From contig NZ_NBYO01000003.1 in NCBI RefSeq assembly GCF_002238045.1, forward strand, positions 496,001 to 560,000: a stretch of DNA of 64,000 nucleotides, written 5' to 3'. Source of the DNA: Notoacmeibacter marinus (GTDB taxonomy: Bacteria; Pseudomonadota; Alphaproteobacteria; Rhizobiales; Rhizobiaceae). Of the stretch, positions 2,421 through 56,370 are shown piece by piece. The notes under the pieces were generated by a model. That model ran no database searches, was not told where the DNA came from, and worked only from the letters and a program-made list of their open reading frames with translations. Every line of letters starts with the position of its first letter. Within the stretch, counting starts at the first letter, position 1. A program made the position numbers and the translations under genes.

Positions 2421-2452
2421 AAGCCACCTCCGATGTTCGATGGAGGTGGCTT
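2421..2452 (-). terminator. Hairpin after doxX whose 3' arm carries the ribosome-binding site of the FAD oxidoreductase
   Basis: On the minus strand an 11-bp perfect stem (2442-2452 pairing with 2421-2431) encloses a 10-nt loop and is followed by TATTC and then the ATG of the oxidoreductase gene. The 3' arm reads GGAGGTGGCTT and so includes the Shine-Dalgarno sequence. It looks like an intrinsic terminator of the bufA-bufB-bufC-doxX unit that also masks translation initiation of the next gene. The U-tract is short, so read-through is likely. Confidence 0.65.
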
Positions 2453-2486: not shown

Positions 2487-2975
2487 CTAGTGAGCGTAAG
2501 AGCGCCCTCCACCGGCTTTTTCGTCCCCGATCCAACGGCCGAGAAGGCGGTCGAGGCTGATCTGACCGGCACCATAAACAACCAGCGCCAGCGCCATGGC
2601 GGCCCATGGCAGATGGAAATTTGCCCAGGCGGACGGCACGGTAAGCTGGATGATCGCCGTCATGAAGAGCAAGCCGAGTGCCGAGAAGCGAGTCATCAGG
2701 CCCAGAACCAGAAGCACCGGCAACAGGATTTCGAAGATACCGGACATCCACGCCATCAGCGATGGAAAGGGATACGGCACTGCCGCACCGAAAATGTGCA
2801 GCCGGAACTCATGGGTAAAGAGCAGCGTCGTGGTGTCGGACAGCTGACCGAACCCGTCCCATTTGGTCAGGCCGGATTTGAAGAAGGGCACAGCGAGCGC
2901 GAACCGCAGGGCAAGCAACGCCACCGGTTCGAAAAAGAGAGCGATTGCGTTCAGGCGTTCGGAAAGGCCATTCAT
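2487..2975 (-). CDS. DoxX family membrane protein of the bufferin operon (BufD/GigD-like)
   Basis: A 162-residue integral membrane protein of the DoxX family with about four hydrophobic segments (near residues 18-36, 62-98 with a break, 100-120 and 123-140). The family signature is visible: LRFALAVPFFKSGLTKW near the N-terminus and the segment RFSALGLLFMTAIIQL. DoxX proteins often accompany MNIO/bufferin genes and are the fourth gene of the Caulobacter gigABCD operon, where their biochemical role is unclear; quinone-linked redox functions have been proposed for relatives. Here it starts 16 bp after bufC and is followed by a terminator-like hairpin. The membrane family is certain; the function is inferred from operon context. 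Confidence 0.88.
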   Translation of the reverse strand: MNGLSERLNAIALFFEPVALLALRFALAVPFFKSGLTKWDGFGQLSDTTTLLFTHEFRLHIFGAAVPYPFPSLMAWMSGIFEILLPVLLVLGLMTRFSALGLLFMTAIIQLTVPSAWANFHLPWAAMALALVVYGAGQISLDRLLGRWIGDEKAGGGRSYAH

Positions 2976-2991
2976 GATGTGTCCTCCTCGG

Positions 2992-3762
2992 TCAGTTCGT
3001 CAGGGTGAGTGCGCCGGCTTCGGTCAGGCGAAGAAGCGTGGCGCCGAAATCGAACGATGAATCGGCTTCGAACGCCGCCATCGCCGCGTCTTCCAGTCCA
3101 CGTCCATCGAGCAGCGCGCTTGCGAACCCCATTTCGGCGTCGGACAGGAACGTCAGTGAAACCGCCTCCTCCCGACGGGTCAGAAGTACGTTCTGCGAAC
3201 CTCTTTCGGTGAGCGGCGCAACTGTCTCATCCTGATGGGCGATCCAGATCGACCCGACCGGATGGGACGACGCCAGAAGGCGGCTTGCCGGATGCTTTGC
3301 GATAGTCGCGAGAACAGCGGCATCGGCAAGGTCCAGCGCCTGAAGATCGGCGATTTGCAGGATCACGGCATCGGCCGCGTGATAGGCTTCGCCGAGCAGC
3401 CATTCCAGCCTTGCGACATCCGGCAGATAGGCGAGATGCCGCGCCGCCTCGACGTCGCCGAGAAACGACGGAAACGCTTCTCCGTAAGAGAACATCAGCG
3501 GCGAGGTCGGCCGGTGCTGTGCGGTAAACTGCGCTGCGACGAAGGCGAAGAACTCGTCGCCGACCAGCCGCCGCGTGACCGGATAACGCTGCTCCAGTGC
3601 ACGGTGAAGACTGCTATTCAGATTGTTGCGATAGATAGCGAAACGCCGCCCATCGGCGCGTCCGTCCGCCGTTCGCATATTGGCAGGGATGCTCGTTGCA
3701 TCCGCCGGCAAGCAGGATAGAAGCTCGGCCTGCGCGGCGTCCGTATCGGAAAGCGCGATCAT
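2992..3762 (-). CDS. bufC: BufC-type DUF2063 partner protein of the MNIO enzyme
   Basis: A 256-residue soluble protein with the N-terminal DUF2063 (HvfC/BufC) domain. The hallmark RFAIYRNNLNSSLHRALEQRYP lies near residues 40-61, followed by FSYGEAFPSFL and YLPDVARLEWLLGEAYHA. The family was first annotated as putative DNA-binding, but in RiPP clusters such proteins bind the precursor and work with the MNIO (DUF692) enzyme as its partner. The C-terminal half is more variable, as usual. The start ATG overlaps the bufB stop by four bases (ATGA at 3759-3762), which points to coupled translation and a stoichiometric BufB-BufC complex. Confidence 0.92.
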   Translation of the reverse strand: MIALSDTDAAQAELLSCLPADATSIPANMRTADGRADGRRFAIYRNNLNSSLHRALEQRYPVTRRLVGDEFFAFVAAQFTAQHRPTSPLMFSYGEAFPSFLGDVEAARHLAYLPDVARLEWLLGEAYHAADAVILQIADLQALDLADAAVLATIAKHPASRLLASSHPVGSIWIAHQDETVAPLTERGSQNVLLTRREEAVSLTFLSDAEMGFASALLDGRGLEDAAMAAFEADSSFDFGATLLRLTEAGALTLTN

Positions 3763-4643
3763 TGCGCGGCCTCCACAGAGGCGCTGACGAAATCGGCCAT
3801 GATCGCATCGGCCATCCGCGCCTCGGCGAACAGCGTTTCGAAGTCGGGCACGTCATTGTCCCATTCGATCAAGGTCGCAACGGGACCGAGCCGGCTCAAG
3901 GCATGGCGGTAGAGGCCGAACACGTCCTTCGAAACATTGCGGTCATGGGTGTCGACCAGAACGCGCTGGCCTGCCTCGTCCTCTATTTCCTCGTGGCCGG
4001 CCAGATGGATTTCACCGACGAACTGCACCGGGAAGCGGTCGATATAGGCAACGGGATCGAAGCCGTGATTGGTGCAGGTGACCATGACATTGTTGACGTC
4101 GAAGAGCAGACCACAGCCGGTGCGCTCGGCGATTCGTCTGAGAAATTCGGTTTCTTCGATCGTGGATTCTTCGAACAGCAGATAGGTCGAGGGGTTTTCG
4201 AGCAGCATCTGGCGGCCGAGCGTCTGTTGTACTTCATCGACATGGGATGCGACCCGGTCGAGCGTGGCATTGGTGTAGGGTAACGGCAGCAAGTCGTTCA
4301 GGAACTGATCCTGATGCGTCGACCAGGCGAGATGCTCGGAAAAACTGGCCGGACGGTAGCGATCCAGCAGATGTCGCAGGCGCGTCAGATGCGCTTTGTC
4401 GAGCGGTCCGGCGCCACCGATGGACAGGCCGACCCCATGAATGGAAAGCGGATAGCGCTCTGCCATTTCCTCAAGAAAGCGGTGCGGCGCACCACCCTCG
4501 CCCATATAGTTCTCGGCATGGATTTCGACGAAACCAAGATCGGGGTTCTGGTCCAGAATATCCGTGCGGTGCTCGGCCTTCAGGCCGATGCCGGCCCGTG
4601 CGGGAAGCTGGCTTGGCGTGAACGAAGGCGATGTGTTGGGCAT
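3759..4643 (-). CDS. bufB: BufB, multinuclear non-heme iron oxidase (MNIO, DUF692) that modifies the bufferin precursor
   Basis: This 294-residue TIM-barrel enzyme belongs to the DUF692/MNIO family. Related BufB enzymes convert cysteines of the bufferin precursor into copper-binding 5-thiooxazoles. The metal-ligand landmarks are all present in order: FVEIHAENYMGEGG (about residue 38), SIHGVGLSIGG (about 67), FSEHLAWS (about 101), LLENPSTYL (about 147), LLFDVNNV (about 179), IHLAGHEE (about 213), VDTHD (about 230) and LIEWDND (about 258). It starts 85 bp after bufA, beyond a hairpin, and overlaps bufC. Length and motif order match functional family members, so the active site appears intact. 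Confidence 0.94.
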   Translation of the reverse strand: MPNTSPSFTPSQLPARAGIGLKAEHRTDILDQNPDLGFVEIHAENYMGEGGAPHRFLEEMAERYPLSIHGVGLSIGGAGPLDKAHLTRLRHLLDRYRPASFSEHLAWSTHQDQFLNDLLPLPYTNATLDRVASHVDEVQQTLGRQMLLENPSTYLLFEESTIEETEFLRRIAERTGCGLLFDVNNVMVTCTNHGFDPVAYIDRFPVQFVGEIHLAGHEEIEDEAGQRVLVDTHDRNVSKDVFGLYRHALSRLGPVATLIEWDNDVPDFETLFAEARMADAIMADFVSASVEAAQ

Positions 4644-4678
4644 GGGTCTGCTCCCGCGCGGAAAATAGGAATGGAAGA

Positions 4679-4716
4679 GAACCGGCGGCGAAGAGAAGGG
4701 ACCTTACCGCCGGTTC
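4679..4716 (-). terminator. Hairpin between bufA and bufB, probable attenuator
   Basis: On the minus strand GAACCGGCGG (4707-4716) pairs perfectly with CCGCCGGTTC (4679-4688), giving a 10-bp GC-rich stem with an 18-nt loop. It lies 12 nt after the bufA stop codon and 35 nt before the bufB start. The downstream sequence is pyrimidine-rich but has no continuous U-run, so partial termination or mRNA 3'-end protection is more likely than full termination. Either would raise the ratio of precursor peptide to its modifying enzyme. Confidence 0.6.
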
Positions 4717-4728
4717 GGAACTGGGCGC

Positions 4729-5034
4729 TTAGCCCTTGTTCATGCCAGGTACGTCCCGGTCGAGCGCGGTGAGCGAACCGGTCCGGTCGCCCGGCAGTTC
4801 CATCGTCTCGCAGGTGCCGGCTGGCACATACGTCCAGGCATTGCCCTGATAGTCGACGGTGGACGTGCCCGCGCAGCTGGTGCCGGGGCCAGCGGCGCAA
4901 TCATTCTGGCCGGCCAGGGAAACGCCGTAGCATTTTACCTTCTCCTGCGCCTGGGCGGGCGTGGCAATGGCTGCAGCCGAGAGAGCGGTTGCCAGGGAGC
5001 CGGCGAGAGCGATGCTGAAGTTGCGACGGTTCAT
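4729..5034 (-). CDS. bufA1: BufA1-type bufferin precursor (DUF2282, copper-binding RiPP)
   Basis: A 101-residue exported peptide of the DUF2282/BufA1 (GigA) family. A hydrophobic signal peptide spans residues 1-29, ending AQA before Q30. The core has four cysteines, C35 (KCYG), C46 (NDC), C54 (SCAG) and C75 (GTC), with the family-typical stretch [20 protein letters not shown]. In characterised bufferins, MNIO-catalysed thiooxazoles formed from cysteines allow copper chelation in the periplasm. ATG at 5034 is chosen over an upstream in-frame TTG because GGAGG lies nine bases before it. The N-terminus reads NRRNF, a twin-arginine-like pattern unusual for a family normally described as Sec-exported. 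First gene of the operon, with a SigF-type promoter at 5098-5123. Confidence 0.92.
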
Positions 5035-5097
5035 GGTGGATACCTCCAAAGAGTCCGATTGGGTTTTTGAACGGCATCACGCCATCCATGGTCAAAC

Positions 5098-5123
5098 ATC
5101 GGGAGCGATCGGAAGGGCGTTAC
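5098..5123 (-). promoter_or_regulatory. SigF-type ECF promoter of the bufferin operon
   Basis: On the minus strand GTAACG (5123-5118) is followed after exactly 16 nt by CGATGT (5101-5096). This matches in pattern and spacing the Caulobacter SigF promoter, remembered as GTAACC-16 nt-CGAA. It would start transcription near 5090, giving a leader of roughly 55 nt before the bufA ATG. The divergent promoter at 5194-5219 has the same layout, which supports both. Confidence 0.65.
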
Positions 5124-5193
5124 ACGGCTCACGATTTCGTGATCGAAACGTGATCGGAAAGGCTGTAGGTTTTCAAAACTCTGCCCCTGTTCT

Positions 5194-5219
5194 GTAACAT
5201 TGGCGGAGGTCGCCTCGAA
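5194..5219 (+). promoter_or_regulatory. SigF-type promoter of sigF-nrsF (autoregulation)
   Basis: GTAACA (5194-5199), a 16-nt spacer and CGAA (5216-5219) match the Caulobacter SigF consensus closely and sit directly upstream of the sigma factor gene. Transcription would begin about 5226, only a few bases before the ATG codons at 5229 and 5235, so the mRNA from this promoter would be leaderless or nearly so. The AGGA at 5221-5224 could act as ribosome-binding site only on transcripts started further upstream. Confidence 0.65.
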
Positions 5220-5228
5220 TAGGATGTC

Positions 5229-5786
5229 ATGCAGATGACCGCACCGCCTTCAACGCCAGATCTCGACGGGCTTTTCACTGCAGGGCTCGAAGGCGACCGG
5301 ATCGCCTATCAACGCTTTCTGGACGAGGTCGCCCGAACGATGCGCGCGTTCCTTCGCAAGAAAATGGCGGGCGGCGGCACCGCGGATGTGGAGGATGTCG
5401 TGCAGGACGTTCTGATCGCCGTTCATACCAAGCGTCATAGCTGGCGGCCGGACAAACCGGTGGCGGCCTGGCTGTTCGCCATTGCCCGTTACAAAGCGAT
5501 CGATCACTGGCGTTCGCAATCGCGCCACTCTCATCTCGATATCGCGGATTTCGAAAGCGTTCTCAGCGACAACCAGTCCGAGCCGGTGATTCTGGATCAT
5601 GAACTCGAGCGTGCCGTCGGTGCGCTTTCCGGCCGTTCCCGCGAGGTCGTTTCGGAGATCTCACTGAAGGGACAGAGCATTTCCGACACCGCCAAGACCC
5701 TCGGCATGAGCGAGGGCGCGGTGCGTGTCGCCTTCCACCGGGGTTTGTCGGCGCTGAACGCGCGTTTCAAGGACAGCGAGAAATGA
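5229..5786 (+). CDS. sigF: SigF-type ECF RNA polymerase sigma factor
   Basis: A 185-residue extracytoplasmic-function sigma factor. Region 2 contains the core-binding and -10 recognition segment VEDVVQDVLIAVHTK followed by AWLFAIARYKAIDHWRSQSR (about residues 56-95). Region 4 has the helix-turn-helix GQSISDTAKTLGMSEGAVRVAFHRGL (about 149-174). It is followed by an NrsF-type anti-sigma gene with a four-base ATGA overlap and diverges from the bufferin operon, exactly as sigF-nrsF accompanies gigABCD in Caulobacter, where the pair responds to heavy metals and oxidants. A promoter with its own consensus precedes it, so positive autoregulation is expected. ATG at 5235 is an alternative start. Confidence 0.9.
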   Translation: MQMTAPPSTPDLDGLFTAGLEGDRIAYQRFLDEVARTMRAFLRKKMAGGGTADVEDVVQDVLIAVHTKRHSWRPDKPVAAWLFAIARYKAIDHWRSQSRHSHLDIADFESVLSDNQSEPVILDHELERAVGALSGRSREVVSEISLKGQSISDTAKTLGMSEGAVRVAFHRGLSALNARFKDSEK

Positions 5787-6421
5787 AAACCAGTCAGCTT
5801 ATCGATCAGCTCAGCGCCGAAGCGAGCACCCATCCACCCAAGCGCCCCCTTTCCTGGCCTGTCGCGCTGGGTCTGGCGGTCGCCGTCGGCGCCGTGTTGA
5901 TGTTCGCTCTTTTCGACGTACGGGCCGACCTTCCCGATGTCGCCATGTATTACGGTTTTCTGCTGAAGCCGATCGTCGCCGCCCTGCTGGCCATTCCGGC
6001 CATCCGGCTGATTATGGACGTTTCCGAGCCGACCAGCGAGCCGACCCGACATCTACCATGGCTCGCCGTGGGCTTCGTCGTGCTGGCCATCGGCATAGCC
6101 TTGGAAATGATGATCGTTTCACCGGCGAACTGGTCCGCCCGGCTGATGGGCGATAACCCGGCGGCCTGTGCGGCGTCCGTTTTCCTGATCGCCCTTCCGA
6201 TCCTGAGCATGGTGATCTTCGCGATCCGCCAGCGCGCCACCGTCCGGCCGGTCATGGCCGGCGCATTGGCCGGGCTCTTCGGCGGCGCGGTATCGACCTT
6301 CCTCTACGCCGCCCACTGCCCGGACGATTCGCCCTTCTTTCTGGCAATCTGGTACGGCATTGCGATTCTTGCGCTGATTGGCACCGGCGCATTGGCCGGA
6401 CGGCTGTTCCTGCGCTGGTGA
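5783..6421 (+). CDS. nrsF: NrsF-type membrane anti-sigma factor (DUF1109)
   Basis: A 212-residue inner-membrane protein with about six hydrophobic segments (near residues 25-44, 57-75, 92-112, 128-147, 155-175 and 185-207). NrsF holds SigF inactive at the membrane and releases it under metal or oxidative stress. Two cysteines, C129 (in NPAACAAS) and C179 (in AAHCPDDS), fall at almost the same positions as the two conserved sensory cysteines of Caulobacter NrsF. It overlaps sigF by ATGA, so sigma and anti-sigma are made together. No other DUF1109 copy is in the window. Confidence 0.87.
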   Translation: MKTSQLIDQLSAEASTHPPKRPLSWPVALGLAVAVGAVLMFALFDVRADLPDVAMYYGFLLKPIVAALLAIPAIRLIMDVSEPTSEPTRHLPWLAVGFVVLAIGIALEMMIVSPANWSARLMGDNPAACAASVFLIALPILSMVIFAIRQRATVRPVMAGALAGLFGGAVSTFLYAAHCPDDSPFFLAIWYGIAILALIGTGALAGRLFLRW

Positions 6422-36816: not shown

Positions 36817-38391
36817 TCAGCCTTGCGACACCGGCAGCGCGACGAAGCGTTGGGCGTCATTCGTTCTGACCTGCATCAGCACAGCCTTACGGCCATCCTT
36901 GGTGGCCTTGTCGGTCGCCGCGACCACATCCTTCGCGGTGCTGACAGTCTGGCCATTGACCTTCAGAATGATGTCGCCAGCCGACAAGCCCTTTTCCTCA
37001 GCATCCGATCCCGGTTCGACATCGGTAATCACGACGCCCTTACCGTCCTCGACCGGCGTGACGGTCAGCCCGAGGTCATCGAGAAAGGACGATTCCAGCA
37101 CAGGCTCGTCGCCGCCATCGCGGTCATCTCCGAGCCCCATGGCCATGCGATCGGGCTTTGGCATGAGGCCGAGCTTGACCTTCACATCCTTGGTGTCGCC
37201 ATTGCGGAAGACCGACACGTTGATTTCGCTGTCCGGATCGAATCCGGCGATAGTGCGCGACAATTCGCGTGGGCCTTCGACCTTCTCACCATTGATCGCG
37301 ACGATAATGTCGCCCGCTTCAATGCCGGCCTTCGCCCCGGGACTGTCATCCGTCGGCTGCTGCACGAGCGCGCCTTCGGCAACATCGAGACCGACCGCCT
37401 CGGCAATGTCATCGGAGACCGGAGCGATCTGCACTCCCAGCCAACCGCGTTCGATGGAACCGTCATCGATCAGATCGCTGATGATCCGCTCGGCAGCCGT
37501 GGCAGGAATCGCGAAGGCGATGCCGACATTGCCGCCGGACGGCGAGAAGATGGCGGTGTTGATGCCAATCACCTGACCGGCCGTATTGAAGGCCGGACCG
37601 CCTGAATTGCCCCGATTGACCGGCGCATCGATCTGGATGAAATCGTCATAGGGTCCAGCGCCGATGTCGCGCCCGCGCGCCGAAACGATACCGGCCGTGA
37701 CCGAACCGCCGAGACCGAAGGGGTTGCCGATCGCCAGCACCCAGTCGCCGACACGCACCGCCGAATCGTCGGCGAAGGTCGCGTAGGCCACTTTCCGGCC
37801 CTCGGTATCGACCTTCAGAACCGCCAGGTCGGTGCGTGGGTCCGTGCCAACCAGCGTGCCGTCCATTTCGGTGCCGTCATTCAGCACCACCGTATAGGAC
37901 GAGCCGTTTTCGACGACGTGGTTGTTCGTCACAACATAGCCGTCCTCGGAGATGAAGAAGCCCGATCCCTGACCGCTCGGCCGTTCGCGGCGCGGCCGGT
38001 CACGCTCAGCGCGACGGTTGCGGTTCGGACGTGCATCATCGCCCTCGCCTCCGAACTCGCGGAAGAAACGGCGGAAGGGGTGATCTTCGGGCAATTGCTC
38101 GAAACCGGGCATGCCGCGGAACTGGAAGTTGAAGCCGTTGCGGCTGTCGGAGGTCAACTGGCGGTTGGATTTCACCCGCACGGAGACAACGGCGGGCGAT
38201 ACACGCTCGACCACATCGGCGAACCCGTTGATCGCCGTGGACTGCTCCGTTCTTGGAACGGTGACCTGTTCGGCGAGGGCAGGCGCGGTTTGGTAGGCTG
38301 ACAGGCCGGCGGCGCCGCCGCCGAGAATAGCGACCGCACCGGCGGCAGCCAGAAGCCGGCGGCGGATGGAATTGGAAGGCTGATGCGCCAT
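36817..38391 (-). CDS. degP: DegP/HtrA-type periplasmic serine protease (Do family)
   Basis: A 524-residue periplasmic protease and chaperone that degrades misfolded envelope proteins. An N-terminal signal/anchor (LLAAAGAVAILGGGAAGLSAY) is followed by a linker, then a trypsin-like domain with His in VVTNNHVV, Asp in DPRTDLAVLKV and Ser in APVNRGNSGGPAF, and two PDZ domains (about residues 300-395 and 430-520). An insertion before the catalytic domain is rich in Arg, Asp and Asn (DARPNRNRRAERDRPRRER). The start at 38391 (MAHQPSN) has AGAGGA eight bases upstream. The gene lies between ccmH and the two-component pair. Confidence 0.95.
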   Translation of the reverse strand: MAHQPSNSIRRRLLAAAGAVAILGGGAAGLSAYQTAPALAEQVTVPRTEQSTAINGFADVVERVSPAVVSVRVKSNRQLTSDSRNGFNFQFRGMPGFEQLPEDHPFRRFFREFGGEGDDARPNRNRRAERDRPRRERPSGQGSGFFISEDGYVVTNNHVVENGSSYTVVLNDGTEMDGTLVGTDPRTDLAVLKVDTEGRKVAYATFADDSAVRVGDWVLAIGNPFGLGGSVTAGIVSARGRDIGAGPYDDFIQIDAPVNRGNSGGPAFNTAGQVIGINTAIFSPSGGNVGIAFAIPATAAERIISDLIDDGSIERGWLGVQIAPVSDDIAEAVGLDVAEGALVQQPTDDSPGAKAGIEAGDIIVAINGEKVEGPRELSRTIAGFDPDSEINVSVFRNGDTKDVKVKLGLMPKPDRMAMGLGDDRDGGDEPVLESSFLDDLGLTVTPVEDGKGVVITDVEPGSDAEEKGLSAGDIILKVNGQTVSTAKDVVAATDKATKDGRKAVLMQVRTNDAQRFVALPVSQG

Positions 38392-38454
38392 GAATCGTTT
38401 CCTCTTCACTGTAGCGAGGGAGCTCGCCTCTTTGATAGGAAACGATCTAGAGCG

Positions 38455-38504
38455 CTTCGCCTTACAAGGCACTTTCCGGCAGGTGAAAACTTGGTAAGGC
38501 GAAG
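38455..38504. repeat. 11-bp inverted repeat between ccmH and degP
   Basis: CTTCGCCTTAC (38455-38465) and GTAAGGCGAAG (38494-38504) are perfect reverse complements 28 nt apart, 64 bp upstream of the degP start. They could form a hairpin in the ccm read-through RNA or, more likely given the long spacer, act as a paired operator for a degP regulator. The left arm is preceded by TCTAGAGCG, a sequence often found in dispersed rhizobial intergenic repeats. Confidence 0.5.
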
Positions 38505-38528
38505 TCGGCCGGACAGGACAGACGCCTG

Positions 38529-39020
38529 CTATTTGTCGGAAGGGTCGTTTGCCAGGGCCTTGCGCAGACGGGCCTCTTCCTCAGCCGTCAGCGAAGCCGC
38601 ACCGTCCGTTTCCACTGCCGAATTACCATGCGCCTGCCGGCGGGAGAAGAGATAGAGGCCGCCGCCCAACAACACCAGAAGCGGCGTCGACCAAAGCAGG
38701 ATCGTGGTGGGCGAAAAGACCGGCTTCAGCAGAACGAACTGCCCGTAGCGGGAAACGATGTAGTCGACGACCTCCTCATCGGTCTCACCCGATTCGATCC
38801 GCTCGCGGACGAGAATGCGCAGATCGCGGGCAATGGACGCATCGGAATCGTCGATCGATTGGTTCTGGCAGACCAGACAGCGCAGACCCGCCGAAATATC
38901 CCGTGCGCGTTCTTCCAACACCGGATCGTCGAGCACTTCGTCCGGCTGCACTGCAAAGGCCGATGGCGGGCCAAAAAACAGCCCGCCGATCAGAACGAAA
39001 AGAGCGAATGGGCGTCTCAA
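38529..39020 (-). CDS. ccmH: Cytochrome c-type biogenesis protein CcmH (CycL)
   Basis: A 163-residue membrane-anchored thioredoxin-like protein that reduces the CXXC of apocytochrome c before haem attachment. The signature LRCLVCQNQSIDDSDASIARDLR lies near residue 45, after a signal peptide, and a C-terminal membrane span (TILLWSTPLLVLLGGGLYLF) is present. The start is inferred at TTG (39020), overlapping the ccmF stop as TTGA, because a normal signal peptide begins there. It is the last gene of the ccmI-E-F-H group. Confidence 0.92.
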   Translation of the reverse strand: MRRPFALFVLIGGLFFGPPSAFAVQPDEVLDDPVLEERARDISAGLRCLVCQNQSIDDSDASIARDLRILVRERIESGETDEEVVDYIVSRYGQFVLLKPVFSPTTILLWSTPLLVLLGGGLYLFSRRQAHGNSAVETDGAASLTAEEEARLRKALANDPSDK

Positions 39021-41011
39021 CCGGTCGCCTCCGCCTGGGGCTGGCGAAGCCGTGATTTCGGTGCGCGTGGAGCGCCGACCCGCAAACGGCGGTCCGATAG
39101 AGAAACGAACCCGCCAATCATCATCAGCACCGTGCCGAGCCATATGAGTGTGATCAGCGGTTTGTGCCAGATACGCACGACGGCACCGCCGCCCTCCGAC
39201 AGATCGCCCAGCGATACGTAAAGCTGCGAAAACGCGAAGGTACGAATGCCCGCCTCGGTGGTCGGCATCTGGCGCGCTGTATATATCCGCTTGGACGAAG
39301 AGACGGTACCGAGCGCCCTGCCTTCAGCGGTAGCGATCAGGAACTGAGCGCGGTCGGCGACGAAATTCGGCCCGCGTACGGGAACAATGGCGTCGAAAGT
39401 GATGCTGTAGCCGGCGATATCGACGCTGTCGCCCGGCTTCATCGCCACGATCCGTTCCTGCTCGAATGCGCTGACGGCTACAATTCCAAGCACCGTCAGA
39501 CCGAGGCCGGCATGGCCGAGCGCGGTGCCGAACATGCTGCGCGGTAGCCCGACGAAGCGGCGCATCGCGACCGGCAGGGGCGTACGACCGACACCCGCCT
39601 TTACGGCCAAGTCTGTCACGGCACCCCCAAAGAGCCACACGGCCAGCCCGATACCGAGCGCGGCGAATACGGCGGTCGGATCGACGAAGAGGAGGCTGAC
39701 CGCGACAGCGAGCAGCGAAAAGCCGAACGCCCAGACGAGTCGCATTGCCACGGCAGGCAGATCACCCCGCTTCCAGGACAGGAGCGGCCCGAACGGCACG
39801 GCGACCAGAAGCGGCACCATGAGCGGCCCGAACGTCAGGTTGAAGAAGGGTTCGCCTACCGAAATCTTCTCGCCGCTGAAAGCTTCGACCATGAGCGGAT
39901 AGAGGGTGCCGACCAGAACCGTTGCCGTGGCGGATGCCAAAAAAAGATTATTGAGCACGAGCGCGCCCTCGCGGCTGATCGGCGCAAACAGACCGCCGGT
40001 CTTCAGGCTGGATGCGCGCAACGCGAACAGCAGCAGCGCCCCGCCGATGAAGAAGACCAGAATGGCCAGGATAACGAGACCGCGCGTCGGGTCCGATGCA
40101 AAGGAATGCACCGACGTCAGAATGCCAGAGCGTACGAGGAACGTGCCGAGGAGAGACAGCGAGAAGGTGATGATCGCCAGCAGCAGCGTCCAGATTTTAA
40201 GGGCGTCGCGCTTTTCCATGACGATGGCCGAATGCAGCAGCGCCGTTCCCGACAGCCAGGGCATGAAGGATGCGTTCTCGACCGGGTCCCAGAACCACCA
40301 GCCACCCCAGCCGAGTTCGTAATAAGCCCAATAAGAGCCCATCGCGATACCGGCCGTCAGAAACGTCCAGGCCAGCAATGTCCAAGGCCGCACCCAGCGC
40401 GCCCACGCCGCTTCCATGCGCCCGTCGATGAGTGCGGCGATGGCAAATGAGAAGGCAACCGAGAAGCCCACATAGCCGAGATAGAGAAGCGGCGGATGGA
40501 TAGCGAGGCCGACATCCTGCAGGATCGGGTTGAGATCGCGGCCTTCCATGGGCGCGGGCGACAGTCGCGCGAACGGGTTCGAGGTCAGCAGAATGAACAG
40601 CAGAAACGCGCTGCCGACCCAGCCCTGAACAGCCAGGACCAGCGTTTTCAGGCGCAGCGGCAGGCTCCGCCCGAATGCCGCGACGAGGGCTGTGAAAAGC
40701 GCCAGGATGAAGACCCACAGCAACATGGAGCCCTCATGATTGCCCCAGGTTCCAGTGATGCGATAGAGCGCGGGCTGCTGCGAATGGGAGTTCTCGAACA
40801 CGTTCACGACCGAAAAGTCGGACCGGTAATACGCCGCCAAAAGGACGCCGAAGGACAGGGTTATCAGAGCGAAAACCGAAAGCGCCGTCGGAGCTGCGGT
40901 CGCCATGACGCGCTCATCGTTGCGAAGGGCACCGGCAAGCGGGACCATCGCCTGGAACAACGACAGCGCCAATGCGAGAACAAGAGCAAAATGGCCGGTC
41001 TCGATCAGCAT
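39017..41011 (-). CDS. ccmF: Haem lyase subunit CcmF (CycK)
   Basis: A 664-residue polytopic membrane protein that, with CcmH and CcmI, ligates haem from holo-CcmE to apocytochrome c. It has about 15 membrane spans and the haem-handling WWD motif YYELGWGGWWFWDPVENASFMPW (about residues 230-252), plus conserved histidines in the HPPLLYLGYVGFSV and LLHSAIVMEK segments. Length is normal. It starts 18 bp after ccmE and overlaps ccmH. Confidence 0.96.
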   Translation of the reverse strand: MLIETGHFALVLALALSLFQAMVPLAGALRNDERVMATAAPTALSVFALITLSFGVLLAAYYRSDFSVVNVFENSHSQQPALYRITGTWGNHEGSMLLWVFILALFTALVAAFGRSLPLRLKTLVLAVQGWVGSAFLLFILLTSNPFARLSPAPMEGRDLNPILQDVGLAIHPPLLYLGYVGFSVAFSFAIAALIDGRMEAAWARWVRPWTLLAWTFLTAGIAMGSYWAYYELGWGGWWFWDPVENASFMPWLSGTALLHSAIVMEKRDALKIWTLLLAIITFSLSLLGTFLVRSGILTSVHSFASDPTRGLVILAILVFFIGGALLLFALRASSLKTGGLFAPISREGALVLNNLFLASATATVLVGTLYPLMVEAFSGEKISVGEPFFNLTFGPLMVPLLVAVPFGPLLSWKRGDLPAVAMRLVWAFGFSLLAVAVSLLFVDPTAVFAALGIGLAVWLFGGAVTDLAVKAGVGRTPLPVAMRRFVGLPRSMFGTALGHAGLGLTVLGIVAVSAFEQERIVAMKPGDSVDIAGYSITFDAIVPVRGPNFVADRAQFLIATAEGRALGTVSSSKRIYTARQMPTTEAGIRTFAFSQLYVSLGDLSEGGGAVVRIWHKPLITLIWLGTVLMMIGGFVSLSDRRLRVGAPRAPKSRLRQPQAEATG

Positions 41012-41029
41012 GTCATGCGGCTCCTGGAC

Positions 41030-41545
41030 CTATTGGGTGAGTGGAATGGATGCGGTGGGCTCTGCCGAAACGGTATCCCCGGCGGGTTTGCCATAAGAGC
41101 CGCCGCCCTCGCCGCCCTCCTTCCACATGCCCTTTTCCTTCAGGCTGTCGGCGACCTCTCGCGGCATATATTGTTCGTCATGCTTTGCCAGAACCGTACT
41201 GGCGACGAAAACGCCGTCCAGCGTCATTTCACCCTCGGCAACGACGCCCTGCCCTTCCCGGAAAAGGTCGGGCAGAATGCCCTGATAGCGGACGGGAACG
41301 GATGCCGCGCCATCGGTAACGGCGAAGCGGACTGTTTCGCTCTGTCCCCGTTCGACCGAACCATCGACAACGAGGCCACCGAGGCGGACCTTTTCGCCCG
41401 GCTTCAGCGGCCCGGCGGCGATGGCGGATGGGTCGACGAAAAAGACGATCTGCTGATTGAGCGCGGTGAGGACAAGGGCCAGCGCGAGGCCCAGAAAGGC
41501 CGCTGCTCCGCCGATCAGTCCCAGACGCTTCTGTTTACGAGTCAC
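41030..41545 (-). CDS. ccmE: Haem chaperone CcmE (CycJ)
   Basis: A 171-residue membrane-anchored periplasmic protein that binds haem covalently and hands it to CcmF. An N-terminal span ([20 protein letters not shown]) is followed by an OB-fold. The haem-binding His sits in [14 protein letters not shown] (about residue 123-136), which fits the HxxxY rule. The C-terminal tail is Gly/Pro-rich. The ATG overlaps the ccmI stop by four bases (41542-41545). Confidence 0.96.
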
Positions 41546-42699
41546 GAGCGAGTCTCCGAATTGACTTCGGGGCTGGGAGCATTGCCGGATCGCGACAATG
41601 CGTCCGCCGCCGAACGGATTCTGGTTTGCGCGGGTTCGTCCTCCGGAAACGCTTCAAGAGCACGACGCACCGCATCCTGACCCTTATCCATATCGCCCAG
41701 AACACGGTACGCATTGATCAAGCGCAACCATTCGTCGATCGAACCGCCATTATCTTCAAGTCGCTTGTCGAGCCCGGCGACCATCTGTCCGATCATCGCC
41801 TGCCTGTCGTCTGCCGACATATCGGCGGCGGCGGCTACGGCTTCGCGGTCCGGGCCACGCGGCGCATCCCCGGCGGGCTCGGCGGCAGCAAGCTGCGCCG
41901 CCTGGCGCGCGGCTTCAAACCAGGGCGAGCCTGCATCCTGGCTTTCGGCCAGTTCGTTCCATAGCTGAACGGCGCCGGCATTGTCGCCCTCCTGACGTTT
42001 CGCCAGAGCAAGGAAATAGCGCGCCCGGGGTTCGGAGGGCTCAAGCTCCACGGCCCGCTCGAGCCGCTGCTTCACATCGGCGGTGACAATGCCGCCGCCG
42101 GCGGCGATCTCCGCTTCGCCAAGAGCAGCCAGCAAGGACCCGCTCTCGCCGTTCAACCGAACCAGCGCGCGGAAAGCACTCGCGGCATCATCGTAACGGC
42201 CGACGCGCATATAGATGGGCGCCAGAGCAGACCAGCCACGCGCATCCGACGGATCGGCCGCAAGCGCCCGTTCCGCGCGAGCAATCAGATTGCCAATGCT
42301 ATCGTTTCGTGGATCGGCCTGAAGCCGCGCCTGCAGCGGTTGCGCCGGCATGTCGGGTTCGCCCAGAAAGCCGTAGAGCCCCCATGCGACGAGAGGCACT
42401 GCCAGAACCGAAACGATCAGGAAAGCGCTGGGCAGGCGTCCGCGATCGTCCCCCTTCTGCCGGTCGCGCGCATGCAGCAGCCGACGGCCGATTTCAGCGC
42501 GCGCCTCCGAAGCGGTCGGCGCATCCAACGATCCGCGCTCGATCTCGCGTTCAAGCGATGTCAGCTGATCGCGATAGACCGCTTCATCCGCCGCGTGCTC
42601 GGCGACTGCGTCAGCAGTTTCGGCCTTCGGCAAAAACAAAACGATAGCGCCGATGGACGCAAGGGTCAGAACAGCCGCGATAATCCAGAACAGCGTCAT
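41542..42699 (-). CDS. ccmI: Cytochrome c biogenesis protein CcmI (CycH), TPR protein
   Basis: A 385-residue membrane protein that holds apocytochrome c for the haem lyase. Two N-terminal spans (about residues 2-22 and 90-112) bracket a cytoplasmic coiled segment ([19 protein letters not shown]), followed by periplasmic TPR repeats from about 135 ([37 protein letters not shown] and later units). The ATG at 42699 is used because AGGTG lies seven bases upstream; a GTG nine bases earlier also reads in frame. First gene of the ccm group. Confidence 0.94.
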
Positions 42700-42715
42700 G
42701 ATCGGCACCTGTGGT

Positions 42716-45794: not shown

Positions 45795-46001
45795 TCAGGC
45801 AATGGCCCGGCGCGCCGTCACCCGCCCCCAAAGGGCGACAAGGCCGGTTGTCGCCGTCAATATTTGCAAAATGCCGTCGGCAACGGCCCCGCCTTCCAAT
45901 CCGCCGGTCGGCACACCGGCAAACGAGGCGGCGGCCAGCACAACCGTGCAGAGCGACGCCCATATCGTCTTGGACAGATACCATGGTTTTAGATCGGTCA
46001 T
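45795..46001 (-). CDS. Small holin-like membrane protein at the end of the GTA cluster
   Basis: A 68-residue protein with the N-terminus MTDLKPWYLSKTIWASL, a pattern seen in small phage holin-like proteins, and two hydrophobic segments (about 14-32 and 44-60) joined by a glycine-rich turn, ending in a basic tail. It overlaps the g15 stop by four bases (ATGA), so it is co-translated with the tail-tip gene. GTA particles need cell lysis for release. In Rhodobacter the lysis genes lie elsewhere, so a linked holin candidate is notable. Function is inferred from topology and position. Confidence 0.7.
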   Translation of the reverse strand: MTDLKPWYLSKTIWASLCTVVLAAASFAGVPTGGLEGGAVADGILQILTATTGLVALWGRVTARRAIA

Positions 46002-49000
46002 TGCAGAAGTCTCCTTTCGTAGCTTGGTGAAATGGCGTCGGGAACGAAGCGGCGGGTCATGGCGATTCCGGCTCCGACGGTGAGGCTGAGCTGGCGCACC
46101 TCCAGCGAATGCGTCGCATCGGGCACGGCGAAGGTGCTTTGCGGAACCGTCCAGTTGGCGGTTTGAACGATCGCCGTCGTCAATGTCTCGCCGGTCGGCC
46201 CCCGGATCGCCGCTTCGTAGTTTTCGCTCTCTTCGCCGAGGGGAATGTCCAGCCCCTCCCAACGATCCGCGTCCTGACGCCCTCGGCGAATCCATCGAAA
46301 GTCGATTGCGCCCTCCACGATCCGGGCTGTCGGATGCACCGGCGCCAGCGGCATGAGCGAACGAAGGCCGCCCGTTCGGGTGACGTCCACACGCTCCGCT
46401 TCGCTCGATTCGCGGCCCGCCGGCTCGATACGCCACGCCATTTCGGTCCCGATCTCCGCATAGTGAAGACCTGCGGCCTCGACTGCATCGTCCAGTAGGA
46501 CGAAAGTCGAGCCCGTGGGCAGGCCGTTGACGGCGATGTCTTCGGTGCCAAGCTGGCCGCGTAGCAAACCGCCGAGCCGCCAGAGATCCGCTGCGATTTC
46601 TTCAGCCCGTTCGAATTGCAGCACTTCCCATCCGGACGGCCCCTTTATGGCCGCCGCATTCGCGCCGGCCAGAAGGGCAATCCGCTCAACCGAAGAGAGA
46701 CTGCCGCTGTAAAGCTGTACCCGCAGCGTAAGCGGGCACACGCGGCCGGGTCTGGCCGGTGGCAGGGCGTCCACCGTCTCGCCCATCGTGGCCGCCTCCT
46801 CCACCACGGTACGCTGGACAAAGACTCCACCCGGCGCCGCCATGGCAGCGACCGGTTTCCAGAAGCGCGACCAGGCAGCCACCTGAAAACGGTTGGCGGG
46901 CTCAGCGCCATCGACAAGCGGCAGATCGAGGAAGGCCACCGCCGGCGCGCCGCCCTGCTCGGCGACGGACTGCGCCGTCAGGCCGGAAGGGAAGAGCGAC
47001 CGGTCGGGATGCGGCGCAAAGGCCTCGTCGCGGCGTGCGCGAATACGGACGTCCAGGCCGGTCTCCACCTCCTCGACCTTCCAGACGACATCCGGCCGGT
47101 CCTTCAGCCGAAAGCGCGAAGCGGGCTGCGGTACGGCAAGTGATGGCGGAAGCGACAGCGTCAGCGAAACCCGCTCCTCCTGCGCGCGACGCAACCGGTC
47201 GGCAACGCGTGCTTCCAACGCGCCCCGATGCATCGCGCCCGGGAAAGCGATCTGCCGCGACCGTTTCTGGTCTGCGCCATCCTCGAACTGGCGGGCGACC
47301 GCCGACTGGTATTCCATAAAGGGGTCTCGCGCGGCGGCGAGCAGTTCGCCGAACGTTTCCATGGGCGATGCATAGGTTTCGATGGCCGGACCGTGGTCCG
47401 GCTGCTCAACCGCATCGGCAACTGTCGGCACCGCGCTCTGTCTGATACGCGAGCGGAATGTCAGACGACCGTCGATTTCGAACGTCTCGATTTCGTGCAA
47501 ATCGAGCAGCGGCTTGAGAAATTGCCGCGTTGACGCGCCCGCATCGACGATGACGCCCTCGACCATGGCGTCGACGCTGGACGTGTCGAATTCGGTGATA
47601 CCGGCCCGCCGAAGAAGCTCCGCCAGACAATCGCCGAGCTCGACCTGATCGAGCCGGCCGTTCAGCCAGTGGCCGCGCGACCATGCCTCGCCATCGGACC
47701 AGATCGCGTCGAGCAAAGGAAAGGCCGGAAAGGGCCGCGTGTCCCATGCCCAGAGGTAAAGGCGTTCCCAGTCGACCGGCGAGCCGGCAAGGCCTTTCCA
47801 GTGCGCCAGATGCGCCTGCAGGAAGCGGCGTTGGATGAGATCGTCACGCCCGCCGTTCGAATCGCGCGGCGCGGCGCTTTCCGAAGATTTACCGTCGATA
47901 AAGAGGTTCGGCTGGTTCGCGCCGCCGTCGATCGCCGGTGCGCCAAGCTCGGTAAACCAGATCGGCTTGGCCATGGGCGTCCAGTCTGTGGGCTCGGCAA
48001 GCTCGACGCCGTTGCGACGTTCGAAATGCTGATTGGCCCACCAATCCTGGATGGCCTTGGGCCGGAAGACCCAATCCTTGCCGTAAGCGCCGTCGCTAAT
48101 CGATGTACGTATCCGGTTCGAACGGTTCTCATCGCTGGCATAGAAACAGTCGCCATATTCGCCGCCATCGATCGCGCGTTGGAGCGCCCTGCCATCGTGG
48201 GCACTCGCGGCGCCGTCCGGATTGTCGCCATAAACATCGTTCTGCCGCCAGTCCGAAAGCGGCAGGTAATTGTCGATACCGATTGCGTCGATGTTGGGAT
48301 CGGCCCAGAGCGGGTCGAGGTGAAAAAAGACATCGCCCGACCCATCGGCCGGCTGGAAACCAAACCATTCGCTCCAGTCGGCGCCGTAGGTGATCTTGGC
48401 ATCGACACCGAGAATCGATCGCACCTCTGCCGCCAATTGGCGCAGGCCAGCGACGAAGGGAAACTCGTTATTGGCGTTGCGCGCCGTTGTCAGACCCCGC
48501 AGTTCGGACCCGATTAGAAAGGCATCGACGCCGCCGGCGATCCTGGCAATGTCGGCGTAGTGCCGGATGAAACGGCCATAGCCGAACGATGTGCTCGAGC
48601 CGAGAAAAACGGCGATCTGCGCATCAATGTTCGAGGACGAACCGGTCGGTGCTATGCGGCCGCGCCAGGGATAGGCCGGCTGGCCCTCCGCGCCATTGAG
48701 GTCGGGCAAAGCGTTATCCGGCGGAATATCCATCATCACGAATGGATAGAGCGTCACGGAAAGGCCCCGCGCTTTTAGATTCCGGATGGCTTGAATTACC
48801 GAGGCGTCCGCCGGCGTCGAGCCGTAGGCCAGGCCGCCATCCACCGTCGAAATCCGATGCGCGGTTGCCGGAGCAAGGCCATCGACCGACCAGACGAGAT
48901 GTTTTGCGCCCTCCGACGGGCCGGTCACGCCCGGCCGGATCGTGCAGACGTCGGCGCGCAAATCATCGCCAAACCAGCTGACCACCAGGGCGACGTGGCG

Positions 49001-49804
49001 AAGATTCGGGCAGAGCGCCATCAATTCGTCAACCGATGCGGCGAAATCGCTCTCCGAAAAGAGGTTGTGCCGGTTGACCCATTGTTCACGTCCCGGCCCG
49101 CCATTGGAAACCAGCCTGGTCGGAAAAAGGCCGAACCCCGTCGAGCCGGGAATGAGGCAGATTGCACGAACATCTTCGGCGATACCGCCAACCGGGCGTA
49201 TCACCTCGAAATGGACCTGTGGCAGGCGGTTGCCGTAGTCTTTCAGCGGCATCCGTTCAAAAACCGCGTAGGCCGTGCCGCGATAGGCGGGCGTCTGGCC
49301 CAGGCCCTGCTTAGCTTCGATCAGCGGGTCGGGCGCCTGATCGTCGGTGCCCGTGTAAACCCGCATCTCCATCCCTGTCAGATCGATCTCGCGACCGTCC
49401 ATCCAGACCCGGCGAATACCGGCAATCTCACCTTCGCAGATGGCCAGAGCGAAATTGGCGTAATAGCTGTATGTCGTTGTCTTCGTCTTTCTGGAGCGGC
49501 GGCTCCCCTTCCCTCCGCTTCGCTCTTCGGTATGGCGCGCCTCTTCATGCCGCGTCATCCAGATCAGCGTTCCGCCTATGCGCGCCGTGCCGAAAATCTG
49601 CGGCAGGGAGACGCCCTCCTCGGCAGTCTGGGGTTGAAAGCCGGCGAGTCGCGGGCCTTCCCGCTCGCCATCCGGCTGCCCGAAGATCTGCTGGTCGAGC
49701 GCATAGCCCGCCATCGCACCGAGCGCCCCGCCAATGGCAGTGCCGACCGGGCCGAAAACGCTGCCGATCGCCGCACCGGCCGTGCGCAGAATCATGGTCG
49801 CCAT
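45998..49804 (-). CDS. GTA tail-tip protein g15 (TIM-barrel glycoside-hydrolase-like, host specificity)
   Basis: A 1268-residue protein corresponding to the last structural gene of the Rhodobacter GTA. The N-terminus has a small glycine-rich hydrophobic stretch (GSVFGPVGTAIGGALGAMAGY), followed by the GTA TIM-barrel domain (about residues 200-640), with GSELRGLTTARN, DAKITYGADWSEWFG and WFTELGAPAIDGGANQPNLF, then the phage-tail domain and a C-terminal receptor-binding region. The homologue forms the tail fibre/penetration apparatus and probably digests peptidoglycan or capsule sugars. Length is as expected. Confidence 0.93.
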   Translation of the reverse strand: MATMILRTAGAAIGSVFGPVGTAIGGALGAMAGYALDQQIFGQPDGEREGPRLAGFQPQTAEEGVSLPQIFGTARIGGTLIWMTRHEEARHTEERSGGKGSRRSRKTKTTTYSYYANFALAICEGEIAGIRRVWMDGREIDLTGMEMRVYTGTDDQAPDPLIEAKQGLGQTPAYRGTAYAVFERMPLKDYGNRLPQVHFEVIRPVGGIAEDVRAICLIPGSTGFGLFPTRLVSNGGPGREQWVNRHNLFSESDFAASVDELMALCPNLRHVALVVSWFGDDLRADVCTIRPGVTGPSEGAKHLVWSVDGLAPATAHRISTVDGGLAYGSTPADASVIQAIRNLKARGLSVTLYPFVMMDIPPDNALPDLNGAEGQPAYPWRGRIAPTGSSSNIDAQIAVFLGSSTSFGYGRFIRHYADIARIAGGVDAFLIGSELRGLTTARNANNEFPFVAGLRQLAAEVRSILGVDAKITYGADWSEWFGFQPADGSGDVFFHLDPLWADPNIDAIGIDNYLPLSDWRQNDVYGDNPDGAASAHDGRALQRAIDGGEYGDCFYASDENRSNRIRTSISDGAYGKDWVFRPKAIQDWWANQHFERRNGVELAEPTDWTPMAKPIWFTELGAPAIDGGANQPNLFIDGKSSESAAPRDSNGGRDDLIQRRFLQAHLAHWKGLAGSPVDWERLYLWAWDTRPFPAFPLLDAIWSDGEAWSRGHWLNGRLDQVELGDCLAELLRRAGITEFDTSSVDAMVEGVIVDAGASTRQFLKPLLDLHEIETFEIDGRLTFRSRIRQSAVPTVADAVEQPDHGPAIETYASPMETFGELLAAARDPFMEYQSAVARQFEDGADQKRSRQIAFPGAMHRGALEARVADRLRRAQEERVSLTLSLPPSLAVPQPASRFRLKDRPDVVWKVEEVETGLDVRIRARRDEAFAPHPDRSLFPSGLTAQSVAEQGGAPAVAFLDLPLVDGAEPANRFQVAAWSRFWKPVAAMAAPGGVFVQRTVVEEAATMGETVDALPPARPGRVCPLTLRVQLYSGSLSSVERIALLAGANAAAIKGPSGWEVLQFERAEEIAADLWRLGGLLRGQLGTEDIAVNGLPTGSTFVLLDDAVEAAGLHYAEIGTEMAWRIEPAGRESSEAERVDVTRTGGLRSLMPLAPVHPTARIVEGAIDFRWIRRGRQDADRWEGLDIPLGEESENYEAAIRGPTGETLTTAIVQTANWTVPQSTFAVPDATHSLEVRQLSLTVGAGIAMTRRFVPDAISPSYERRLLQ

Positions 49805-49819
49805 CGAAACCCTCTCGCG

Positions 49820-50302
49820 TCAGTTCGCAGGGCCGGGCTGAGATCCGGCTGCCGGTTGCGGAAACAGGAAGCGCCCGGCGATCCGCCGTCGCCAGGATGG
49901 CACCAGCGCGCTTTCCACCACACCGATGCCGCTATAGGCATGGATAAAGCGATGCGGCTCGATCGCGATACCGAGATGGCGCGCCGACAGAGTGGGACGC
50001 CAGCGGAAAACGAGCATCTGACCGGCTTCAATGGGGCTATCCGGTTCCACCGGTTCCATATGGCGCGCGGCAGCGTCCAGCAGGCGCTCAGCCGAGCCGC
50101 CACCATCCGCCAGCGAATCCTCGAACGGTGCATAGGGCCCCGCGTCTTCCGGCTCGCGATCGTAGAGGGCGCGCCAGATGCCGCGCACCAGCCCGAGGCA
50201 ATCGCAGCCGACGCCGATGCGCGACTGTTGATGGCGATAGGGCGTACCGAGCCAGCGGCGCGCCTCCTCGACGACGGCCTGTTCGAACGACCCGGCCATC
50301 AT
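49820..50302 (-). CDS. GTA g14 NlpC/P60-type peptidase
   Basis: A 160-residue cysteine peptidase of the phage NlpC/P60 group. The catalytic Cys is in RIGVGCDCLGLVRGIWRALY (about residues 24-43), and the His is in SARHLGIAIEPHRFIHAY (about 108-125). It is part of the GTA tail tip and likely cuts peptidoglycan cross-links during DNA delivery. It overlaps g13 by four bases and is 15 bp before g15. Confidence 0.92.
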   Translation of the reverse strand: MMAGSFEQAVVEEARRWLGTPYRHQQSRIGVGCDCLGLVRGIWRALYDREPEDAGPYAPFEDSLADGGGSAERLLDAAARHMEPVEPDSPIEAGQMLVFRWRPTLSARHLGIAIEPHRFIHAYSGIGVVESALVPSWRRRIAGRFLFPQPAAGSQPGPAN

Positions 50303-51180
50303 TTCACCACCGGCTGGCCGTCGAGCGGCATGGCGCCGCGCACGACGTAGCTATACGCGACATCATTGCCGGGCAGATGGGGGAAGCCGCGGTAGTTCAG
50401 TTGATTGACGAACTTCTCCCGACAGGTGTGAAATGCCTTGTCGCAGCCGGCAATAAGGGTACATGACGCGCCCTGCCCCGGTCCCGAACCATTGCCGTCC
50501 AATTCGAGAACACGACAGTCCGCATTCGCCATTTCCCGCCGGATGCGCGCTGACCGTCGCCGGCCGACAGTATCCGTCCAGAGCAGCACGCCGCCTTCGA
50601 ACCAGCCGGCAAGGAAATCGCCACCGCCATCGACGCGGACGCAGCGTCCCGGTCCGGTGCCGATAGTGGTCACGTGCTCATGCCAGCGGGGATCGTTCAG
50701 ATCGACCTTGCAGGCCTCATCACCCAGTTCAGCGTCGCAACTTCGCCGCACGAAACGGCCCTGTGGCCTGTCGAGCGGCGCGGCGGCGCTTTCCAGACTG
50801 GCGACGAACCGACCGCTCTGAACGGAAATCTCGCCGATTGTGGCACGGCGCAGAAGACGTCGCTCGGTGACATCCGACCAGTTCACCAGCCAGGTTTCGA
50901 CGACGGCGCCGTCAAAGCGGCCGGCGCGGACATCCTCTTCGGTGATCGAGGCGGCGTTCAGCGCGCCTTCCACGTCGGAGCTGTCGACCGCAAGACCGGC
51001 GCTCTCCCGCACCTCGCTGGCGTTCAACCCGCTATTGGGCGTGAATGTCGCGCCGTCGAAGGCGAGCGTCTGATCGGTGTCGGTGAAGCCGAGCACCAAG
51101 CCATCCGCGCAGGTCAGCCGCCAGCAGTGGCAAAGCGTCGTCGCCTGGGCATTTCCAAGCTCCATTGGCTCTGCGCTCAT
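50299..51180 (-). CDS. GTA g13 baseplate hub protein (DUF2163)
   Basis: A 293-residue protein with the N-terminal DUF2163 domain (LCHCWRLTCADGLVLGFTDTDQTLAFDG) and the C-terminal BR0599-like domain. It has many cysteines, including RRSCDAELGDEACKVD (about 145-160) and GCDKAFHTCREKFVNQLNYRGFPHLPGND (about 245-275). The pattern is conserved in GTA hub proteins and probably binds a metal or iron-sulfur cluster. It overlaps both neighbours by four bases. Confidence 0.92.
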   Translation of the reverse strand: MSAEPMELGNAQATTLCHCWRLTCADGLVLGFTDTDQTLAFDGATFTPNSGLNASEVRESAGLAVDSSDVEGALNAASITEEDVRAGRFDGAVVETWLVNWSDVTERRLLRRATIGEISVQSGRFVASLESAAAPLDRPQGRFVRRSCDAELGDEACKVDLNDPRWHEHVTTIGTGPGRCVRVDGGGDFLAGWFEGGVLLWTDTVGRRRSARIRREMANADCRVLELDGNGSGPGQGASCTLIAGCDKAFHTCREKFVNQLNYRGFPHLPGNDVAYSYVVRGAMPLDGQPVVK

Positions 51181-51830
51181 ATCATCACCTCCACCAATGG
51201 CACGCTCGGCACCTCGCCGGCGCGAAATCCAGAAAGGCTTGTCGCCAGATGTTCGATGTCGAAACGCACGGCGATGTCGAAGATGAAGCCAGCACTCACC
51301 GGTGCGCCATCTGCAGGCGGGACGTTGAAGACCACGTCACCCGTCTCGTAATCGAAACCGAAAGCCGTATCCGCGACGGATTGTGCATTGACTGCAACCA
51401 CCACCGTGTCGTTGCGCGGCAACCGGATCGGTCGTGCATAACCACCGTCCCCGCCATAGGTCTTCACGAGCGGAAATCGCGTTGCCGATCCGTCTCCCAT
51501 GCCAAGCGGCTGGTCGGCCGCGCCGATGGCTTGGCTGCGAGGGCTGCTTCGATGATCCAGGGGATCGCGAAAGCGGAACGGATGCATCGCGCCGCCGCGC
51601 GCTTCGAAGAATGCGATCAGCGTTTCCAGATCGGCCAGATCGCGCAGGCCGGTTCCGACATCGAAACGGCGAAGGCTGTGGCGACGACGCTGGTTGCGCG
51701 CTTCGCGCCCGCTGCGTAGCGGAAGAATCTCCACCTGCCGCTCGGGCCCGCCGGTCGCACCAAGGCCGATCGCGATGGGAAACAGCGCGTCATGGAAGCC
51801 GGGTAGCGGAAAGGCATCGCGATCAGACAT
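51177..51830 (-). CDS. GTA g12 distal tail protein (DUF2460)
   Basis: A 217-residue protein of the DUF2460/TIGR02217 family. It shows FHDALFPIAIGLGATGGPERQVEILPLRSGREARNQRR near the start and LIAFFEARGGAMHPFRFRDPLDHRS (about residues 71-95). The homologue forms the distal tail ring joining the tube to the baseplate. It overlaps g13 by four bases and g11 by eight. Confidence 0.93.
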   Translation of the reverse strand: MSDRDAFPLPGFHDALFPIAIGLGATGGPERQVEILPLRSGREARNQRRRHSLRRFDVGTGLRDLADLETLIAFFEARGGAMHPFRFRDPLDHRSSPRSQAIGAADQPLGMGDGSATRFPLVKTYGGDGGYARPIRLPRNDTVVVAVNAQSVADTAFGFDYETGDVVFNVPPADGAPVSAGFIFDIAVRFDIEHLATSLSGFRAGEVPSVPLVEVMI

Positions 51831-52368
51831 GGCGCGTGCCCTTTCGGACCGCTCGCGACAGCATGGCCGTCATCTGCGCTTCCGACTTGCGGAACGAGGC
51901 GGCGTCGCTGGCCTGGACGTTGAAAGTGACGTTGATAGCGCCGCCGCCCTGACCGCCCGCCACGCCGAGCTTGCCATCGCTGCCTCTGCGGAGCGGCATG
52001 ATCGCTTCCGGTCCGGCTTCGCCCATCAGACCGAGCCCACCGGCGAGCGGAAACATCGTCGCGCCATTGACGATACCGCCATTGGCGTTTGGCGTAACCG
52101 GCACGCCGCCTCCACCGAAAAAGCGGCTGAAGAGCCCTCCGACCAGCCCCTGAAGCGGTTGCAGCCCTTTCTGCAAGGACGATCTGGCCAGATCCATCGC
52201 CAGGCTTCGAAGCACATCCTCGAAAGACTTGCCTTCGACGATCGCGCCGGCGAAGGCGGATGTCATTCGCTGACCGAACTGATCGGCCAGCCCCTGAAGC
52301 TCCTTAAGGGCCGTTGCCACCCCGGTGGTGTCGGCGTCGATGCTGACTTCAACCCGCTTTTCCATCAT
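51823..52368 (-). CDS. GTA g11 tail tape-measure-like protein
   Basis: A 181-residue protein with MEKRVEVSIDADTTGVATALKELQGLADQFGQRM, a central glycine-rich hydrophobic stretch (LVGGLFSRFFGGGGVPVTPNANGGIVNGATMFPLAGGLGLMGEAGPE) and the terminal AINVTFNVQASDAASFRKSEAQM, typical of GTA/lambda-type tape measure C-termini. At under 200 residues it would set a short tail. The ATG at 52368 overlaps the stop of the upstream chaperone frame (ATGA), so translation is coupled to it. Confidence 0.9.
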   Translation of the reverse strand: MMEKRVEVSIDADTTGVATALKELQGLADQFGQRMTSAFAGAIVEGKSFEDVLRSLAMDLARSSLQKGLQPLQGLVGGLFSRFFGGGGVPVTPNANGGIVNGATMFPLAGGLGLMGEAGPEAIMPLRRGSDGKLGVAGGQGGGAINVTFNVQASDAASFRKSEAQMTAMLSRAVRKGTRHV

Positions 52369-55096: not shown

Positions 55097-55109
55097 CCTG
55101 TCCGATGCG

Positions 55110-56357: not shown

Positions 56358-56370
56358 TCCGCTGTTCCTT

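Follow-up and report, generated by a model that had tools for sequence, protein, structure and literature searches.

Notoacmeibacter marinus carries a complete bufferin-1 locus that is very probably under autogenous SigF/NrsF control. Judged from its genes, the locus is a typical copy, a fresh example of a known system. In the 64,000-nucleotide stretch of DNA that was analysed (the window), bufA-bufB-bufC-doxX follow one another on the minus strand, with sigF and then nrsF divergent on the plus strand (Table 1). The first-pass annotation had proposed six genes at 2487-6421 forming a complete bufferin locus with its own sigma/anti-sigma switch. Their coordinates and strands are right, each family was confirmed by profile HMM, the gene called a DUF1109 anti-sigma factor corresponds to PF06532 NrsF and homology supports the overall reading. 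The ATGA overlap claimed for bufB and bufC is present, sigF and nrsF likewise overlap by ATGA, and GGAGG is found a short way 5' of the bufA ATG. A genome search identified one DUF2282, one MNIO and one NrsF gene in the 3.29-Mb genome. Modification of the peptide, copper binding and induction in N. marinus are what we infer by analogy with studied systems. Elsewhere in the window, cytochrome c maturation genes (CcmF, CcmH/CycH) adjoin a DegP-type protease with PDZ domains (36817-42708), and Pfam matches outline a gene transfer agent-like cluster at about 45998-60099 (GTA TIM-barrel tail protein, baseplate hub / BR0599, portal, terminase).

Table 1. Features of the bufferin-1 locus, in positions of the window.
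Feature	Position	Strand	Evidence
Perfect 11-bp GC-rich hairpin, candidate terminator	2421..2452	-	Between bufD stop and reductase ATG
bufD, DoxX membrane protein	2487..2975	-	PF07681 63.5 bits, E=3e-17
bufC, DUF2063 partner protein	2992..3762	-	PF09836 77.5 bits, E=1e-21
bufB, MNIO (DUF692) maturase	3759..4643	-	PF05114 352.9 bits; NF050167 MNIO_BufB 386.5 bits
bufA, bufferin-1 (DUF2282) precursor, 101 aa	4729..5034	-	PF10048 90.4 bits, E=7e-26
SigF-type promoter of bufABCD, TGTAAC-N17-CGAT	5098..5124	-	Pattern match
SigF-type promoter of sigF-nrsF (autoregulation), TGTAAC-N17-CGAA	5193..5219	+	Pattern match
sigF, ECF sigma factor	5229..5786	+	Sigma70_r2 (PF04542) / r4_2 (PF08281)
nrsF, membrane anti-sigma factor	5783..6421	+	PF06532 NrsF 156.5 bits, E=1e-45

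BufA is a Buf1-type precursor with four conserved cysteines. C35, C46, C54 and C75 are invariant in an alignment of 81 sequences. The N-terminus is basic, then hydrophobic, and ends in AQA/QE, a Sec-type signal as judged by eye rather than by a predictor. Against the NCBIfam BufA2 model the protein scores 26.4 bits, under the cut-off of 60, as expected of a Buf1 protein, and besides PF10048 no curated Buf1 equivalog matched it. In Buf1, the two central cysteines are reported to be modified and the outer pair to form a disulfide bond (PMC12452194); modification of BufA is accordingly expected at C46 and C54, not at all four. The earlier proposal of cysteine-derived thiooxazoles is thus supported by homology, with the correction that only the central pair is a reported modification site. 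A search of solved structures with BufA returned no match. The AlphaFold model (mean pLDDT 65) falls mostly below 50 in the C46/C54 loop and is uninformative on the disulfide.

BufB possesses the complete set of MNIO iron ligands. A phmmer alignment to TglH (8hci), with its nine iron ligands taken from PMC10880893, places TglH H71, H107, E151, D184 and N187 at BufB H69, H104, E149, D182 and N185, and H216, D229, H231 and E258 at H213, D231, H233 and E260. All nine are identical to those of TglH, bearing out the claim that all metal-ligand motifs are present, and none of the nine varies when 80 relatives are aligned with BufB. BufB also exceeds the cut-off of 310 for MNIO_BufB, the sole NCBIfam equivalog it passes; the methanobactin, ApyH, ChrH and HvfB models score under theirs. 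A methanobactin (MbnB) locus was considered and rejected, with BufB reaching 69 bits against TIGR04159 (cut-off 325). The PF09836 match of BufC spans residues 22-101, leaving the C-terminal RRE part of this DUF2063-RRE partner putative. Searching the PDB with a BufC profile gave no match and with the single sequence one weak, unrelated match. BufC, BufD and NrsF match the NCBIfam HvfC, HvfX and NrsF equivalogs, all below cut-off.

The buf operon may end at a hairpin that overlaps the likely ribosome-binding site of the next gene. Past bufD lies an FAD-dependent reductase gene (1171-2415), and the 3' arm of the hairpin includes GGAGGT, a Shine-Dalgarno-like motif that is likely the ribosome-binding site of the reductase. 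In a second genome of the genus (G002, locus L128) the arms are identical and the loop is changed; in a third (G001, locus L127), which is without bufABCD, the hairpin is missing. The hairpin therefore travels with the buf operon and is most simply read as the bufABCD terminator, although it could instead restrain translation of the reductase. An automatic terminator scan found no excess over shuffled sequences, a scan that is blind to a hairpin with a 10-base loop.

The bufA-sigF gap contains two back-to-back SigF-type promoters, a pair absent from the first-pass annotation. The pattern TGTAAC-N17-CGA matches twice in the 64-kb window, where shuffled sequence would give 0.21 matches. The two sites fall within the 194-base gap, one per direction. 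Published consensus sequences are GTAACC-N16-CGAA for SigF (PMC3511200) and (T/C)GTAAC-N17-CGAA for ECF16 (PMC8315932); judged by its partner and promoter, SigF is of the ECF16 type. When the 32 loci with sigF divergent from bufA were scored for (C/T)GTAAC-N16-18-CG(A/T), a site faced bufA in 31 and sites in both directions were found in 24. The sigF promoter is also retained by both sister genomes. SigF control, previously only supposed, is thus backed by two divergent ECF16-type promoters conserved among relatives. Some 10 bases separate the end of the sigF promoter from the ATG (5193-5229), which suggests a nearly leaderless transcript. No sigma-70-like promoters were found within the locus, and Rfam and tRNA scans returned no matches. 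Both cysteines of NrsF, C129 and C179, are invariant in 32 of 32 aligned sequences and correspond to C131/C181 in Caulobacter (PMC3511200) and C129/C179 in Brucella AbcS (PMC8315932). A solved-structure search with NrsF gave no match.

Genome-wide, TGTAAC-N17-CGA occurs at 11 sites compared with 29 for a reversed control pattern, and a looser SigF pattern at 23 compared with 20; since these counts show no excess, the remaining genomic sites do not rise above chance. None of the listed SigF sites is close to the msrP-like genes (PF00174) of N. marinus. Apart from the buf/sigF sites, two sites of the N. marinus genome (C1:327225 and C3:662367) have, by eye, counterparts of similar letters in the sister genomes and may be within coding sequence.

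To investigate the distribution of the locus, genome contigs of 84,980 species were scanned, and at least 569 relatives were confirmed. Among the best 80 of these at least 569 loci, mostly from alphaproteobacteria, bufA and bufC adjoin bufB in all 80, a DoxX match is near 67 and the full divergent six-gene layout is present in 31. In 41 genomes around the host, a BufB relative is encoded by 25 and NrsF by 11, with NrsF occurring without an MNIO in four. One family relative without an MNIO (L164, 3-1484) has sigF-nrsF divergent from a Met-/Lys-rich repeat peptide (MKTDTMKSDTMKKD...), with back-to-back SigF promoters and a likely membrane cytochrome gene past the peptide, an arrangement that resembles Brucella bcrXQP.

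Within the genus, the complete locus occupies the same position in G002, with BufA 94% and BufB 90% identical. G001 (L127, C1:932500-938000) is without bufABCD and has sigF-nrsF and a SigF promoter at L127 1846-3192, in the same gene order of folD, reductase, sigF-nrsF with promoter and glutathione-transferase gene. Loss of bufABCD in G001 rather than gain elsewhere is the simpler reading of the three genomes, because switch and promoter remain. It is possible, at rather low probability, that SigF/NrsF is separable from the bufferin in this genus, bufABCD being a removable cassette and the switch having a second role or being a recent orphan. A second role is conceivable because G001 keeps switch and promoter; other SigF sites are not above chance.

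The closest studied system is that of Caulobacter vibrioides, where CC3252-CC3257 comprise the same six families in divergent layout with SigF-type promoters and two NrsF cysteines. The match claimed earlier agrees with the published sigF-nrsF / CC3254-3257 locus (PMC3511200). Caulobacter additionally encodes another bufferin operon (CC2907-2905), and its SigF regulon takes in an msrPQ-type operon, unlike N. marinus with its one DUF2282, one MNIO and further SigF sites only at chance level. Caulobacter Buf1 is reported to bear thiooxazoles with which it binds both Cu(I) and Cu(II) (PMC12452194). Copper induces SigF and its regulon in every medium and cell type tested, and mutation of sigF makes cells sensitive to copper (PMC8224329). 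Copper, chromate and cadmium induce the SigF genes and reactive-oxygen-generating agents do not (PMC3511200, PMC8224329). Of the induction by "metal or thiol stress" suggested in the first-pass annotation, the metal part is consistent by homology with the Caulobacter responses, whereas reactive-oxygen agents did not induce there.

Other relatives resemble the N. marinus locus in part. In Cupriavidus metallidurans and Legionella pneumophila, published work treats the gig clusters as bufferin clusters that respond to gold, silver or copper; their hosts are beta- and gammaproteobacteria, and the likeness is by description only. Two reports speak against a copper-buffering role: the homologous gig cluster of Cupriavidus had no effect on copper resistance, and the sigF and MNIO genes of Caulobacter were dispensable for chromium and cadmium survival (PMC8224329, PMC3511200). 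Fontiphorin, oxazolin, gonophorin and Buf2 likewise come from a precursor peptide on which an MNIO and a DUF2063-type partner act, but these precursors are of EGKCG-repeat or Cys-Lys types, not DUF2282, and Buf2 clusters are without sigma/anti-sigma genes (PMC12452194). A 2025 preprint counts bufferins, along with other MNIO-DUF2063 products, among the thiooxazole metallophores (PMC12668002). Brucella bcrS-abcS / bcrXQP (ECF16) shares the sigma/anti-sigma family, the adjoining target operon and the promoter consensus. The family is better characterised outside Caulobacter than had been stated: some 14,000 MNIO enzymes across thousands of genomes have been surveyed, the Cupriavidus and Legionella copies have been studied, sister thiooxazole peptides are known in other genera, and large numbers of such clusters, with their sigma and anti-sigma genes, have already been catalogued (PMC12452194).

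By analogy with these systems, the membrane protein NrsF would hold SigF until it is perturbed, via its two conserved cysteines, by metal that is in excess or reacts with thiols, copper foremost. Freed SigF would then fire both TGTAAC-N17-CGA promoters, one driving bufABCD and the other sigF-nrsF. The iron-dependent MNIO BufB, with BufC as its guide, would act in the cytoplasm and oxidise C46 and C54 of BufA to 5-thiooxazoles. The modified peptide would be exported by Sec, form the C35-C75 disulfide and chelate periplasmic copper, with BufD (DoxX) as a putative accessory membrane protein.

The locus could also be a bufferin by descent that serves mainly against another stress (gold, silver, cadmium, chromate, or, via NrsF, an oxidant, for example hypochlorite), copper being a secondary ligand. 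The gig clusters owe their name to induction by gold, the Caulobacter regulon responds to chromium and cadmium too (PMC8224329, PMC3511200), the Brucella NrsF/ECF16 pair answers hypochlorous acid (PMC8315932) and four of the 41 genomes around the host have NrsF without an MNIO. In the closest studied system, however, the metal reported both to induce and to cause a growth defect is copper (PMC8224329, PMC12452194). We consider a main role in another stress unlikely.

Two further readings concern the product and the state of the locus. A methanobactin-type oxazolone-thioamide in place of 5-thiooxazoles would fit the sub-cut-off matches of BufB to the HvfB and MbnB models and the original assignment of oxazolin (PMC12452194), but BufB passes the BufB equivalog alone and in a later preprint oxazolin is given a 5-thiooxazole instead (PMC12668002), making such a product very improbable. 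A silent or decaying locus, a relic en route to the absence seen in G001, where sigF-nrsF is kept without bufABCD, is hardly credible given six intact reading frames, retained catalytic residues and promoters, and a G002 copy with BufA 94% and BufB 90% identical.

The preferred reading, a copper-buffering bufferin-1 locus under its own SigF/NrsF switch, places a complete single-copy system in an alphaproteobacterial genome of 3.3 Mb, where the genetic background is simpler than in two-operon Caulobacter. Sister species with and without bufABCD offer a natural comparison for the contribution of the peptide to copper tolerance.
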